The notes under the pieces are model-generated. The model was not told the origin of the DNA. It was given only the letters and a program-made list of their open reading frames with translations, and searched no databases. DNA of 64,000 nt from Gemmatimonadota bacterium (lineage in GTDB: Bacteria; Gemmatimonadota; Gemmatimonadetes; Gemmatimonadales; Gemmatimonadaceae). Location: the NCBI GenBank assembly GCA_027307165.1, contig DAHUXM010000025.1, positions 62,001 to 126,000 of the forward strand. Direction: 5' to 3'. How positions within the stretch are numbered: the first letter of the stretch is position 1; the number at the start of each line of letters is the position of its first letter. Both the position numbers and the translations under genes were made by a program. Shown in pieces: positions 24,380-47,612 of the stretch.

Positions 24380-24449
24380 AGGTGGGACGCTTGAATGACG
24401 ACAGGCGCAGATGTATTCGCGCCTTACATGACCTTTTCTGAGAATATCC

Positions 24450-25856
24450 ATGCCTTCTTATGATGTGATCTTCATCGGCGGCGGACCGGCCGGATATGTC
24501 GGCGCAATTCGCGCCGCACAGCTCGGGCTGTCCGTTGCGGTTGTCGAGCGCGACGGGCTCGGCGGCACCTGCGTACTTTGGGGTTGCATTCCCGCCAAGG
24601 CGCTTCTGGAATCGGCGTCGATCGCCGAAAAGGTGAAGAAGGGCGCGGAATTCGGTGTCAGTGCCGGCGAGGTGAAGCTCGACTACGGCGTTGCGATGAA
24701 GCGCTCGCGCAACGTGAGCAATCAGAATTCCAAGGGCGTCGAATTCCTGTTCAAGAAGAACAAGATCACCTGGATCAAGGGCAACGGACGCGTCGCGGCG
24801 AAGAACACCGTCACGGTAAAGGCTGCAGATGGCAAGGAAGAAAAGCACGAGGCCAAAAAGGCAATCTGCATCTGCACCGGCTCGCGAGTGAAAGGCCTGC
24901 CGCAGGCTGGACTCGAGCTAAACAAGACGACCGTCATCTCGTCCGACGAGGCGCTCGCTCTCGAGAAAGCGCCAAAGACGATGGCAATCATCGGCGCCGG
25001 TGCGGTCGGCTGTGAGTTCGCTGACGTGTTCGCGGCGTTCGGTACCCAGGTCACGATCATAGAAGTCGCGAAGCAGCTTCTGCCGATCGAGGATGACGAC
25101 GTGGGCGTCGAGCTCGCCAAGGCGTTCAAGAAGCGCGGTATCACGATGCACACGAGCGCAAAGATCGGCGACGTGAAAGTCGGCAAGGCTTCGGTCAAGT
25201 TCAGCATCGAGATCGCCGGCAAGAAGCAGGATATCGAAGTCGAGAAGGTGCTGGTCGCCGCTGGCCGCGCGCCAAACATCGAGGATATCGGTATCAAGGA
25301 GCTCCGCGTCGCGATGACCGATCGTGGCTTCATCAAGATCAACGAGCGGATGGAAACGTCGGTCAAGGGCATCTTCGCAATCGGCGACGTCGCCGGCCCA
25401 CCGATGCTTGCGCACAAGGGCGAGCGCGAAGGAATTGTATTCGCGGAGTATCTCGCGGGACAGCCGCACGTGCACAACGTGAATTACGGCAACATTCCGA
25501 ACGCGACGTACTGCCATCCGGAAGTTGCGTCGATCGGAAAGACAGAGCGGGAACTCAAGGAACAGAACGTCCCCTACAAGATCGGTAGGTTCCCTTTCTC
25601 CGCCAACGGCCGCGCACGTACGTCAGGCGAGACTGAGGGCTTCGTGAAGATCATTTCCGATCCCAAGTACGGCGAGATACTCGGCGCACACATCATCGGC
25701 GCACACGCGACCGAGATCATTCATGAGCTGGCAGTGGCTCGCGAGAACGAGTTCACAGTCGAGGAAGTGGAGCTGGCGATTCACGCGCACCCGACACTGT
25801 CGGAAGCGGTAGCCGAAGCGACTCTCGACACGCTCGGAAAAATGATCAACTTCTAG
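24450..25856 (+). CDS. lpdA: Dihydrolipoamide dehydrogenase, E3
   Basis: The 468-residue flavoenzyme reoxidises dihydrolipoyl groups of E2 (and GcvH) with NAD. FAD-binding GGGPAGYVGAIRAAQLG is at the N-terminus; the redox-active disulfide is Cys41-Cys46 in GGTCVLWGCIPAK. The NAD-binding segment MAIIGAGAVGCEFADVFAAFG, the GDVAGPPMLAHKGEREG FAD contact and the C-terminal HAHPTLSEAVAEA with the catalytic His/Glu pair are all present. The residues between the cysteines (VLW) differ from the usual LNV/LNR. It is three bases from lipB. The repeats upstream separate it from pdhC but the order suggests one functional cluster. Confidence 0.96.
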   Translation: MPSYDVIFIGGGPAGYVGAIRAAQLGLSVAVVERDGLGGTCVLWGCIPAKALLESASIAEKVKKGAEFGVSAGEVKLDYGVAMKRSRNVSNQNSKGVEFLFKKNKITWIKGNGRVAAKNTVTVKAADGKEEKHEAKKAICICTGSRVKGLPQAGLELNKTTVISSDEALALEKAPKTMAIIGAGAVGCEFADVFAAFGTQVTIIEVAKQLLPIEDDDVGVELAKAFKKRGITMHTSAKIGDVKVGKASVKFSIEIAGKKQDIEVEKVLVAAGRAPNIEDIGIKELRVAMTDRGFIKINERMETSVKGIFAIGDVAGPPMLAHKGEREGIVFAEYLAGQPHVHNVNYGNIPNATYCHPEVASIGKTERELKEQNVPYKIGRFPFSANGRARTSGETEGFVKIISDPKYGEILGAHIIGAHATEIIHELAVARENEFTVEEVELAIHAHPTLSEAVAEATLDTLGKMINF

Positions 25857-25858
25857 TC

Positions 25859-26530
25859 ATGGCTGACAGGGAGTTGCTGGTGCTGAACCTCGGCGAGCGA
25901 TCGTACGCCGAGGTTCTTGCGTTTCAGCGAGACGCCGCCGCTCGCCGGATTACGGGCGAGATCGATCAGGACCTGCTCATCCTGGTTGAGCACCCTCCCG
26001 TGGTGACGCTCGGCCGCAAGAAAGCAGACAACAAGCTGCCGGTCACCGAGGATTTTCTAACGTCGCGCGGAATCGAGCTGTTCGAAGTCGAGCGCGGCGG
26101 CGGCGTGACGTTTCATGGCCCAGGGCAACTGGTTGGCTACCCCATTTTCGATCTGCAGCGTCACAAGCTGGATCTCCACTGGTACCTGCGGCAGGTCGAG
26201 GAGGGTTTGATCCGCACGCTCGCCGCGTACGACATTCCCGGTGAGCGCAACGTCGGCTTTACGGGCGTATGGACCGGCGGAAGGAAGATCGCGTCGATCG
26301 GAGTACATGCACGCACATGGGTGACGTGGCACGGCTTCGCCCTGAACGTCACGACAGATCTGTCATACTTCAACCTGATGACGCCGTGCGGGATCGATGG
26401 CGTCGTGATGACGTCGATGAGTCGCGAGCAGCCGGAAAGGACATTGACGCTGGAGGACGTAGCGGCGGAGACCGCGCGCCAGTTTGGGAATTTGTTCGAT
26501 TTGACGCCGAGGGTTGTGCCGGCGGTTTGA
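25859..26530 (+). CDS. lipB: Octanoyltransferase (lipoate biosynthesis)
   Basis: LipB transfers octanoate from acyl carrier protein to the lipoyl lysine of E2 and GcvH, making the substrate for LipA. The 223-residue chain has the expected LLILVEHPPVVTLGRK, the glycine-rich ERGGGVTFHGPGQLVGYPI, the GRKIASIGVHARTWVTWHGFALNV region, and the catalytic Cys177 in LMTPCGIDGV. The start is ATG 25859, two bases after the lpdA stop. The gene ends at the left flank of the giant palindrome. Confidence 0.96.
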   Translation: MADRELLVLNLGERSYAEVLAFQRDAAARRITGEIDQDLLILVEHPPVVTLGRKKADNKLPVTEDFLTSRGIELFEVERGGGVTFHGPGQLVGYPIFDLQRHKLDLHWYLRQVEEGLIRTLAAYDIPGERNVGFTGVWTGGRKIASIGVHARTWVTWHGFALNVTTDLSYFNLMTPCGIDGVVMTSMSREQPERTLTLEDVAAETARQFGNLFDLTPRVVPAV

Positions 26531-26540
26531 TGGAAACGCC

Positions 26541-26559
26541 ATTCGGCCACGTGCCGAAT
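26541..26559. terminator. Possible hairpin after lipB
   Basis: A 7-bp stem, ATTCGGC with GCCGAAT around a 5-nt loop, ten bases after the lipB stop. There is no T tract, so termination activity is uncertain. The sequence may also be a diverged unit of the adjacent repeat field (compare CGCGCCGAATTGG). Confidence 0.3.
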
Positions 26560-26637
26560 CGAAACGCACCTCTGACGACGCCCAACCACGCGCCGAATTG
26601 GTGGTCCGGCGTAGGGCGCGGATATATCCGCGCCTGG

Positions 26638-26890
26638 CCCATTTACGCGTGATCGAAATCGGATGACCACCGCGTCGATATCGCCGCGCAACGTACCCGG
26701 CCCATTTACGCGCAATCGAAATTGAATGACCACCGCGTCGACACGCCGTCACGACGCGCCCCACCCATTTACGCGTGATCGAAATCGGATGACCACCGCG
26801 TCGATATCGCGGTCGCGACGCGACGCGCCCATTTGGGCGTGATCGAAATCGAATGATGGCGCGATAAATCCACCCGTCGCCAACCCGGCG
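26638..26890. repeat. Four tandem ~63-bp units, left arm of palindrome 1
   Basis: Units begin at 26638, 26701, 26764 and 26828 (periods 63, 63, 64), each starting CCCATTT and containing a GATCGAAATCGGATGACCAC-like core. They are mirrored by four inverted units on the right arm, ending near 27372, 27434, 27497 and 27560. Confidence 0.85.
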
Positions 26891-27591
26891 GGCACGCGAT
26901 CGACGGATAACGATTGGATTCAACACCGTCGCATCGCACGCATAAACGATGGCAGATGACGGTGTGGCACGGATGCATCCGTGCCTGTTACCTCTATTGC
27001 AAGCGAAACCGTATGATCGCCGGACTCACCTGCACCGCACCCATTGATGCGCAATCAAAATCACCGAAACACCGGTTCTTCGCATGCCCGCCTACGACGT
27101 CGTCATAGGGAGCAATTCAGGATTGGCCGAGAGCTGTGATTCCCCCGTAGGCTGGGATGATGACATTTCACATGGGGGCACTGATCAAGTTTCGATTGCA
27201 TTATAGGTGACAGGCACGGATGCATCCGTGCCCCACCTACGCGTGGCATCGGTTACGCCGGCGACGCGACGGTGTTGAATCAAATTGTTGTCCGTGGAAC
27301 CCGTGGCCGCGCCCTTGGCGATGGGTGGATTTGGCCGGTCATCATCATCCGATTTCGTTGCACCTGAATGGGCCGAACGTTGCGACGGCGATATCGACGC
27401 GGTGGTCATCCGATTTCGATCACGCGTAAATGGGCGGGGCGCGTCGCGACCGCGTGTCGACGCGGTGGTCATCCGATGTCGATCACGCGTAATGGGGCCA
27501 GGCGCGTCGCGACCGCGTGTCGACGCTGTGGTCATCCGATGTCGATCACGCGTAACGGGGCCAGGCGCGGAAGAATCCGCGCCCTACGCAT

Positions 27592-27750
27592 GACCACCAA
27601 TTCGGCGCGTGGGCGGGCGTCGTCGCGCACGACCACCAATTCGGCGCGTGGGCGGTCGTCGTCGCGCACGACCACCAATTCGACGCGTGGGCGGACGTCG
27701 TTGGGTGTCGTCGTGCATGCCTACCAATGCGGCACGCGGGTGGGCGTCGG
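27592..27750. repeat. 39-bp tandem units, right flank of palindrome 1
   Basis: GACCACCAATTCGGCGCGTG recurs at 27592, 27631 and 27670 with an exact 39-bp period, and a degenerate fourth copy begins at about 27719. The field ends about 70 bp before the helicase start codon. The reverse-complement unit occurs at 26586 and four times at 46930-47080. Confidence 0.85.
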
Positions 27751-27819
27751 CGGAAGTGCGATGTCGCCGGTGACCAATCCGGCGCGCGATTCCTCGGCGT
27801 CTTCGGGTATATTTCGGGT

Positions 27820-29913
27820 ATGACGGACGATGGCCGCACTGTTATTCCGCTCCATGAGCGCGTCGTGTCGCCGGCCGCCAGCGGTCGCGATTTCGCGGCG
27901 GAGCTGAACCCGGACCAGCTCGCGGCGGCGACGCACGGGGACGGCCCGCTGCTCATCGTCGCTGGCGCGGGCAGCGGCAAGACGCGCACGCTTGTGTACC
28001 GCGTGGCCCACCTCGTCGATCGCGGTGTGCGGCCCGAGCGGATTCTCCTCCTGACGTTCACCAGACGCGCCGCCCACGAGATGCTGTCGCGCGCAGAGCG
28101 GCTCATCGGGAGCGCCAGCCGGAACGTACACGGCGGGACATTCCATGCGACCGCTCATCGCCTGCTGCGACGCTTCGGACCTGCAGCCGGCCTGCCACGT
28201 GACTTCAGCATCATGGATCAGGGCGACTCGGCCGATCTGATGCAGATCTCTCGGGCGGCGCTGGGGTTCGGCGCCGGTGCGAAGCGTTTTCCGAAGAAGG
28301 AAACACTGCACCACGTGTACTCGCGCCACGTGAATACCGGCATCGCGATGGAGGACATCGTACGCGACGAATATCCGCGCTTCATCGAGTACATCCCCGA
28401 CTTCACCCGGTTGTACGCGGATTACACGCTGCGCAAGCAGGAGCGCAATCTCGTCGATTACGACGACCTCCTGCTGCTGTGGGCCATGCTGCTCGAGGCG
28501 AGCCCCGAGCTGGCAAGCGACATCGCCGGACTGTACGATCACATCCTCGTGGACGAGTATCAGGACACCAACGCGCTGCAGGCCCGGATACTGCGCGGAA
28601 TGGCGCGCATGCACTCCAACGTCACAGTGGTCGGCGACGACGCGCAGAGCATCTACTCGTTTCGCGGCGCCACGATACGCAACATCCTGGACTTCCCTGC
28701 CCAGTTTCCTGGAACGCGCGTCGTAACGCTGGATCGCAATTACAGATCGACACCGCAGATACTCGGCACCAGCAATACTCTCATCGCGCATGCGGGCGAG
28801 CGGTTCGCGAAAACGCTCTGGACCGATCGCGCGGCCGCCGAGCGGCCGTTGCTCGTGACGGCGCGCGACGAGCCGCAACAGACGCGATACGTGGTGGACA
28901 GGATCCTGGAGCTGCACGAGGAAGGCATCGCTCTTCGCAGCATCGCCGTGCTCTTTCGCGCGGGCTACATGTCCGCCGACCTCGAGATCGAGCTGGCCAA
29001 CAGGAAGATTCCATTCGAGAAATGGGGCGGGATCAAGTTCCTCGAAGCCGCACACGTGAAGGACGTGCTCGCATTTCTGCGCGTACTGGAGAACCCGCGC
29101 GACGAGGTGAGCTGGTATCGGCTGCTGTTGCTGCTTCCGGGGATCGGCGAGGCGACCGCACGCTCCGCAATGGAGGCACTCGCTGCAGCTGCGTGGGACT
29201 CGGCCGCCTTCGGCGGTTTTGTACCTCCTCCCCGTGCTCGGGCGGCACACGCCTCGCTGGTGGCGTTGCTCGGGACGTTGCGATCAGCCCCCGAGGCGGA
29301 CGACGCCCGCGTCGCGCGCGAGATCGGGCATGTACGCACGATGTACGACGCGATGGTGCGCGACCGCTACGACCGTCCGGAGCCGCGCCTTGCGGATCTG
29401 GATCAGCTGCAGACCATCGCGGCCGGCTTCCCCGATCGCACGACGTTCCTGTCGGCGCTCGCGCTGGAGCCGCCGAGCGCGACGCAGGATTTCGCAGGTG
29501 CGTCTGCTGACAGCGAGGACGATGCGCTGGTGCTGAGCACCGTCCACTCGGCGAAGGGCAAGGAGTGGGACGCGGTGTTCGTGATATCCGCAGTCGATGG
29601 GTTGTTCCCGTCCACGCGCGCACTCGGTAGCGATGAGGACACCGAGGAAGAGCGGCGGCTGATGTATGTCGCCATGACGCGGGCGAGAGATCATTTGAGT
29701 GTGGTACATCCGCTCAACTCATATGGAAGCCAACGCGGAGCGGATTACTCTCTGACGCAGCTATCGCGCTTCGTGGATCCAGAGGTTCGTGCGACGATGC
29801 AGCACGTTGCGCTGGGGTCGGATGACAGGGCGGCGGAGCCCGTATTGGTGGAGCAGCGAGGGCCCGTGGTGGATCTGCGGGCGTTGTTGAGGGGACGATT
29901 CGGCGCGGTTTAG
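27820..29913 (+). CDS. UvrD/PcrA/Rep-family ATP-dependent DNA helicase
   Basis: The 697-residue superfamily 1A helicase unwinds DNA 3'-5' with ATP in repair or replication restart. Motifs in order: Q-motif region LNPDQLAAATHGDGPLLIVA, Walker A GAGSGKT (residues 49-55), LTFTRRAAHEML (motif Ia), Walker B ILVDEYQDTNALQ, motif III VVGDDAQSIYSFRGA, motif IV LDRNYRST, motif V VLSTVHSAKGKEWDAVFV and motif VI RRLMYVAMTRARDHL. I chose ATG 27820; an upstream extension of the frame would read into the repeat field. The chain is slightly shorter than E. coli UvrD and lacks an obvious extra nuclease domain, so PcrA- or Rep-like is the best level of call. Confidence 0.92.
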   Translation: MTDDGRTVIPLHERVVSPAASGRDFAAELNPDQLAAATHGDGPLLIVAGAGSGKTRTLVYRVAHLVDRGVRPERILLLTFTRRAAHEMLSRAERLIGSASRNVHGGTFHATAHRLLRRFGPAAGLPRDFSIMDQGDSADLMQISRAALGFGAGAKRFPKKETLHHVYSRHVNTGIAMEDIVRDEYPRFIEYIPDFTRLYADYTLRKQERNLVDYDDLLLLWAMLLEASPELASDIAGLYDHILVDEYQDTNALQARILRGMARMHSNVTVVGDDAQSIYSFRGATIRNILDFPAQFPGTRVVTLDRNYRSTPQILGTSNTLIAHAGERFAKTLWTDRAAAERPLLVTARDEPQQTRYVVDRILELHEEGIALRSIAVLFRAGYMSADLEIELANRKIPFEKWGGIKFLEAAHVKDVLAFLRVLENPRDEVSWYRLLLLLPGIGEATARSAMEALAAAAWDSAAFGGFVPPPRARAAHASLVALLGTLRSAPEADDARVAREIGHVRTMYDAMVRDRYDRPEPRLADLDQLQTIAAGFPDRTTFLSALALEPPSATQDFAGASADSEDDALVLSTVHSAKGKEWDAVFVISAVDGLFPSTRALGSDEDTEEERRLMYVAMTRARDHLSVVHPLNSYGSQRGADYSLTQLSRFVDPEVRATMQHVALGSDDRAAEPVLVEQRGPVVDLRALLRGRFGAV

Positions 29914-46929: not shown

Positions 46930-47612
46930 ACCACGCGCCGCCGGATTGGTACGCATTCCGACGACGCCCAACCACGCGCCGGATTGGTGGTCGTGTGCGA
47001 CGACGCTAAACCACGCGCCGAATTGGTGGTCGCACCCGACGACGCTAAACCACGCGCCGAATTGGTGGTCCTGCGTAGGGCCAGGCGCGGATTCTTCCGC
47101 GCCTGGCCCCGTTACGCGTAATCGGAATCGGATGCACCGAATATATCCGCGCCTGGCCCCGATAAATGCATTCGGAATCGGAAGTCGATGGGATGCATCC
47201 ACGCCTGCCCCCGTTACGCACAATTGAAATTGGATGTTCGCCCGATATTTCCGCGCGTCGCCCGTTACCCGCAATCGAATTCGGACGTCCGCCCGATATT
47301 ATCGAACGTCGTCGTCGCGTTGTATGCCGTCATCCCGCCGAAGGCTGGTATCGGCGGACACGGCGTAACGCAGGGCAATCTTCGTTGCAGGGATCCGATT
47401 TCGATCGCGCGTAACGGGGTCAGGCGCGGATGCATCCGATCGATATCCAATTTCGATTACGCGTAACGGGGCCAGGCGCGGATGCATCCGGCGGATATCC
47501 AATTTCGATTGCGCGTAACGGGGCCAGGCGCGGAAGAATCCGCGCCCTACGCAGGACCACCAATTCGGCGCGTGGTTTAGCGTCGTCGGAAACGCGCACC
47601 AATCCGGCGGCG
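46930..47612. repeat. Giant imperfect palindrome, locus 2 (modular 39-bp and 52-bp repeats); no gene
   Basis: The 700-bp gap between metG and the S9 peptidase is a second large inverted repeat centred near 47314. Pairs of anchors: 47050-47080 with 47545-47575, 47102-47110 with 47520-47528, 47152-47160 with 47468-47476, 47204-47212 with 47416-47424 (sums 94625-94630). The right arm has three units at an exact 52-bp period (GTAACGGGGCCAGGCGCGGA core, starting near 47411, 47463, 47515); the left arm has their inverses at 50-52 bp. Outside lie 39-40 bp units (CCACGCGCCGAATTGGTGGT), four on the left (46931, 46971, 47011, 47050) and two on the right. These are the same modules as in 26574-27750. 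Confidence 0.9.

Follow-up and report, generated by a model that had tools for sequence, protein, structure and literature searches.

A nested kilobase palindrome between lipB and a helicase gene in a Gemmatimonadota genome is very probably an outsized, RAYT-associated REPIN variant

What kind of sequence fills the gap between lipB and a UvrD/PcrA-like helicase gene in this 64,000-nucleotide stretch of Gemmatimonadota DNA (hereafter the window)? The gap had been described as a single imperfect palindrome, and gapped alignment of its arms agrees: positions 26574–27009 pair with 27189–27624, with 365 of 430 aligned bases identical (85%) and an alignment score of 484, where the best of 100 dinucleotide shuffles scored 33. 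The imperfect palindrome spans 1051 nt (26574–27624), and its outer blocks (26574–26820/27378–27624, 86% identical) and inner blocks (26853–27009/27189–27345, 79% identical) both align without gaps at a coordinate sum of 54198, the value that the original prediction had given for paired anchors. Its dimensions need correction. The arms measure 436 bp rather than about 510 bp, and where almost no spacer and no loop had been claimed, a centre of 179 nt (27010–27188) lacks any arm-to-arm pairing. We also considered an assembly artefact, which is unlikely because the arms differ by 15% and a related palindrome occupies the lipB-helicase junction of the congener G003 (G000 denotes the window's own genome; G001, G002 and G003 are congeners).

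The upstream flank is lipB (25859–26530, + strand; TIGR00214, 180 bits versus a cut-off of 83.6), and the downstream flank is the helicase gene (27820–29913, + strand, start at about 27820; TIGR01073, 433 bits, below the 911-bit equivalog cut-off). Reading from lipB, the left arm begins with a head-side unit of the ACGCGCCGAATTGGTGGTC type (26574–26611, +), present in a single copy on this side and matching, in inverted orientation, the 39-bp array on the right. Next come REP1-left (26611–26634, +), a GTAG tag plus the hairpin GGCGCGGATATATCCGCGCC with loop TATA and its tag outward; a tandem array (26629–26874, +) of four units spaced 63, 63 and 64 nt apart, each a half REP plus the tail core TTACGCGTGATCGAAATCGGATGACC; and REP2-left (26962–26985, +), a degenerate GTGT tag plus GGCACGGATGCATCCGTGCC, again tag outward. 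Within the unpaired centre (27010–27188), a hairpin resembling CGTCATCCCGCCGAAGGCTGGGATGACG but diverged from it lies at approximately 27134–27162. On the right, REP2-right (27213–27236, −; hairpin 27213–27232) carries an outward GTGG tag, read as CCAC on the + strand, and is followed by the right tandem array (27345–27563, −) and by REP1-right (27564–27587, −; hairpin 27564–27583), with loop TTCT and an outward GTAG tag (CTAC at 27584–27587). Four 63-bp units had been described on each side; the left array has them, the last one diverged, and the right array has three clear 63-nt units and one diverged. The right head-side array (27587–27752, −; four copies of 39 nt) lies mostly outside the symmetric part, as only its first copy has a left-hand counterpart.

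GTAG-tagged REPs, their HH and TT dimers and REPtrons have been defined previously (Di Nocera, 2013, PMC3733652), and REPINs are inverted doublets of GTAG-REPs (Bertels and Rainey, 2011, PMC3116915). With outward-facing tags, the REP1 hairpins at 26615 (+) and 27564 (−) form an HH dimer, the REPIN layout. The REP2 hairpins at 26966 (+) and 27213 (−), which lie inside the REP1 pair, form another HH dimer, and the locus therefore contains one REPIN-like pair nested inside another. Elsewhere in the window, a degenerate REP-like hairpin, GGCGCGAATACATCTGCGCC, is found at 24404–24423 between the E2 and lpd genes and is conserved in G003 (L080:8426).

The palindrome is one of a family. The window holds a second member, a 645-bp palindrome (46965–47609) with a REP1 pair and loops TTCT/TTCT between convergent metG-like (+) and S9-peptidase-like (−) genes, and BLAST with the window element gave 124 matches in G000, in dozens of places, and 119 in G003, compared with two weak ones each in G001 and G002. 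Intergenic position was checked for the two window copies (26574–27624 and 46965–47609), and both are intergenic. The family core consists of GTAG plus GGCGCGGAnnnnTCCGCGCC, then TGGCCC and the tail, and the inner arm unit is the second half of the core hairpin, often diverged, plus the tail, at a spacing of 51–63 nt. The exact GTAG-hairpin-TGG motif occurs 39 times in G000 and 38 times in G003; 77 other genomes of the taxonomic family lack it, and a reversed-pattern control returned no match. Sites matching the hairpin pattern number 86 in G000 and 79 in G003. A different dispersed repeat of 25–73 bp, at L065:9071–9143, occurs in 26 further places in G003.

The repeat is thus a short palindrome within the 20–40-nt range with a terminal, unpaired GTAG in many dispersed copies, as in GTAG-tagged REPs, and its inverted, outward-tagged doublets are able to fold as one hairpin, as in REPINs. 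Complete inverted pairs are few (6–7 seen per genome), and partner REP1 hairpins lie about 180–930 bp apart. This distance falls outside the short spacers of about 20–110 bp and speaks against the REPIN reading, given that the spacers of described HH dimers are mostly 20–100 bp (PMC3733652). Since spacer length is presented as typical rather than limiting (PMC3116915, PMC3733652), we class the window element as a REPIN variant and not a standard REPIN. Our literature search for papers combining Gemmatimonadota or Gemmatimonas with REP found none.

Could the palindrome instead act as RNA? The original prediction had proposed a cruciform, a very long RNA hairpin or the recognition site of an unknown enzyme. 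Folding the 1051 nt as RNA and as DNA gave energies 30–45 standard deviations below shuffles, with 384–397 mirror pairs among 432–438 predicted pairs, and the proposed structure and non-randomness hold; the main point, that this is a dispersed RAYT-associated REP/REPIN repeat, was missed. A structured RNA, with a very long hairpin formed by the lipB mRNA or by the 5′ leader of the helicase gene and selection acting on its pairing, would fit the position between two co-directional genes and a fold 35–45 standard deviations more stable than shuffles on either strand, but any palindrome folds well. Across ten palindromes, would-be G-U mismatches number 54 on the + strand and 64 on the − strand, next to 104 of the transversion type; with G-U-type mismatches about equally common on both strands, the arm mismatches show no strand bias and an RNA function is not favoured. 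Furthermore, positions 25500–29000 have no Rfam match up to E 1, the element is missing from the lipB-helicase junction in G001 and G002, and the second window copy lies between convergent genes. We regard an RNA role as very unlikely. The enzyme recognition site came nearest to the truth, although the enzyme is likely of a known kind, a HUH tyrosine transposase that works on REP hairpins in single-stranded form.

Candidate genes for such an enzyme are present in both genomes. A whole-genome scan found three Y1_Tnp genes in G000 and five in G003. Four of the RAYT genes (on contig C25 of G000 and contigs C1, C5 and C6 of G003) lie between inverted REP1 hairpins whose tags point inward to the gene, so that HUH tyrosine transposase genes are flanked by the same REPs as the element. 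The three G003 REP1-RAYT proteins are 60–73% identical to the C25 protein, all four retain the HVH motif and the invariant Tyr, and the REP1-associated RAYTs score 74–78 bits against NF047646 (REP_Tyr_transpos, REP-associated tyrosine transposase), just under the 80-bit cut-off. A fifth RAYT frame sits between REP2 hairpins of the GGCACGGATGCATCCGTGCC type; at L062:9008–9238 the REP2-flanked frame is interrupted by one internal TAG, and the REP2 transposase of G000 may therefore be a pseudogene. TTCT, the loop found at the C25 REP1-RAYT locus, is more frequent in G000 than any other loop (15 of 39). Distant RAYT genes in other phyla are in some cases also surrounded by short inverted GTAGG hairpins (L091, L092, L094 and L106), which indicates that the RAYT-REP association is the usual one and that the long arms are the difference. 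The start of contig C33 of G000 (L069:1–594) lies within an arm, and the orthologous G003 arm (L084) is next to a RAYT gene; such palindromes may be points at which assemblies break.

The RAYT loci of both genomes (L075 and L088) are themselves palindromes similar to the window element in length and unit arms, a resemblance that would suit a degraded RAYT locus, or REPtron, that lost its transposase gene by deletion. We find this origin highly improbable, as tags that point inward around RAYT genes face the other way in the window palindrome, the centre with its 179 nt falls short of the length of a RAYT gene, and it is not among the matches of the whole-genome Y1_Tnp scan.

Comparison with the congeners shows that the family varies in presence between species. 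Two G000 palindromes (the L055 and L056 sites) are absent from the orthologous G003 sites, which hold unrelated sequence or REP-like remnants, and G003 has a single REP with loop TTCA at the site of the second window palindrome. G003 carries its related palindrome at the lipB-helicase junction without the left REP2 and most of the left units; a deletion running from the tail of a REP1 unit to the similar tail of a REP2 unit would leave this arrangement. Neither the L055 and L056 sites in G003 nor the lipB-helicase junction in G001 and G002 offered a clean empty site with exact ends, and since only unrelated sequence or REP-like remnants occupy the palindrome-less G003 sites, deletion is as possible there as insertion. 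The same junction carries other hairpin repeats, GGATCCCGACCTTCGGCGGGATGACTAC in G002 (L089:8642–9020) and CGTCATTCCCGCGAAnGCGGGAATCCA in G001 (L090), and the lipB-helicase gap looks like a repeat hotspot. Presence and absence between species, together with long inverted arms, could also suggest a classical MITE, a DNA-transposon satellite whose long terminal inverted repeats are moved by a DDE transposase. However, the core of the repeat is a hairpin with a GTAG tag, its associated genes belong to Y1_Tnp, and inspection by eye of the two compared sites showed no target-site duplication, which makes a MITE highly unlikely.

The two halves of these elements change together. The same loop tetranucleotide occurs on both sides in 12 of 14 inverted pairs (14% expected, p = 5e-9), and in a fuller list in 15 of 17 (5.0 expected; one of 200000 permutations reached 15). 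The window pair (TATA/TTCT) is one of the two exceptions. Between G000 and G003, with orthologous sites identified by their collinear flanks, the loops read TTCT/TTCT versus TTTA/TTTA at the C16 locus, TTCT/TTCT versus TCCT/TCCT at the RAYT locus, and TATA/TTCT (window) versus TGTA/TGTA (G003) at the lipB locus; a further orthologous pair, L065/L119, has TTCT/TTCT loops in G000 and G003 alike. At the lipB locus, site patterns favour agreement within species over arm orthology (22 sites versus 3), in an alignment that is poor beyond the first ~100 columns, and those at the C16 locus are even (7 versus 7). Furthermore, the interior is inverted relative to its collinear flanks both at the RAYT locus and at L065/L119, and exchange between inverted arms does therefore seem to occur. 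Together, the concerted pattern and the inversions suggest that arms are homogenised within a locus. A tentative extension, which we hold to be possible but doubtful, is that REPINs are rewritten in place, with the RAYT or arm-to-arm template switching replacing both loops and arms as a pair. In that event resident palindromes would track whichever loop type the local RAYT lineage has.

To our knowledge, the mode of REPIN replication is unsettled. With the REP identity, RAYT association, nesting, paired loops, inversions and presence/absence differences observed here, we consider the window palindrome to be, very probably, a giant, nested, composite, non-autonomous REPIN that was spread by a RAYT and whose arms grew by tandem duplication and were homogenised within the locus. 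Such an element would be bounded by the inverted, outward-tagged REP1 hairpins with their GTAG tags and would enclose the REP2 pair with its GTGG-type tag. It would most likely be mobilised by a chromosomal RAYT encoded between the same REP1 hairpins, a HUH tyrosine enzyme presumed to act on single-stranded REP. In E. coli, TnpA-REP cleaves single-stranded REP and recombines it in vitro (PMC8266576), and the RAYT would, by analogy, move the element as single-stranded DNA. The anatomy of the arms suggests that they lengthened through tandem duplication of the 51–63-nt unit of half REP and tail. They could have been kept similar via inversion, gene conversion or replication template switching between arms, the last being a documented route to creating and maintaining hairpins (PMC8794818). 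The cell probably tolerates the palindrome because of its central spacer and mismatches. Matches to SbcD in both genomes were all sub-threshold and carry no weight here. There is no need to assume a host function for the palindrome.

What the family offers is length. Its long, information-rich arms and the availability of two close species provide enough sites per element to see the halves differ jointly and an interior flip, which short REPINs do not. The family also shows that kilobase imperfect palindromes are tolerated in a bacterial chromosome, and the paired change of loops provides a sequence-level test of RAYT specificity.

Compared with known systems, the window element is ordinary in kind and unusual in its size, its nesting and the paired change of its halves. 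Like REPINs, it has an inverted pair of REP hairpins, a predicted single-hairpin palindromic layout, dispersed intergenic copies and a RAYT in the genome; it differs in the distance between REPs, against commonest spacings of 71 and 110 bp in P. fluorescens SBW25 (PMC3116915), in arms built of tandem half-REP units, in the second REP pair nested within it and in its low copy number. With the GTAG-REP families, REPtrons and TIRtrons (PMC3733652) it shares the GTAG tag, an 8-bp stem, a 4-nt loop and a RAYT between inverted REPs, as well as the presence of two REP types, a RAYT gene lying between the copies of each, and CGTC-type hairpins nearby. Unlike in REPtrons and TIRtrons, the RAYT-flanking arms here continue as tandem arrays that mirror each other, and the resulting palindromes measure about 0.9–1 kb. 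Finally, E. coli BIMEs, which are REP/iREP mosaics (PMC8266576), likewise consist of tandem copies of REP plus linker in intergenic DNA, whereas here each array starts with a complete REP and continues mostly as half REPs, and the arrays mirror each other.
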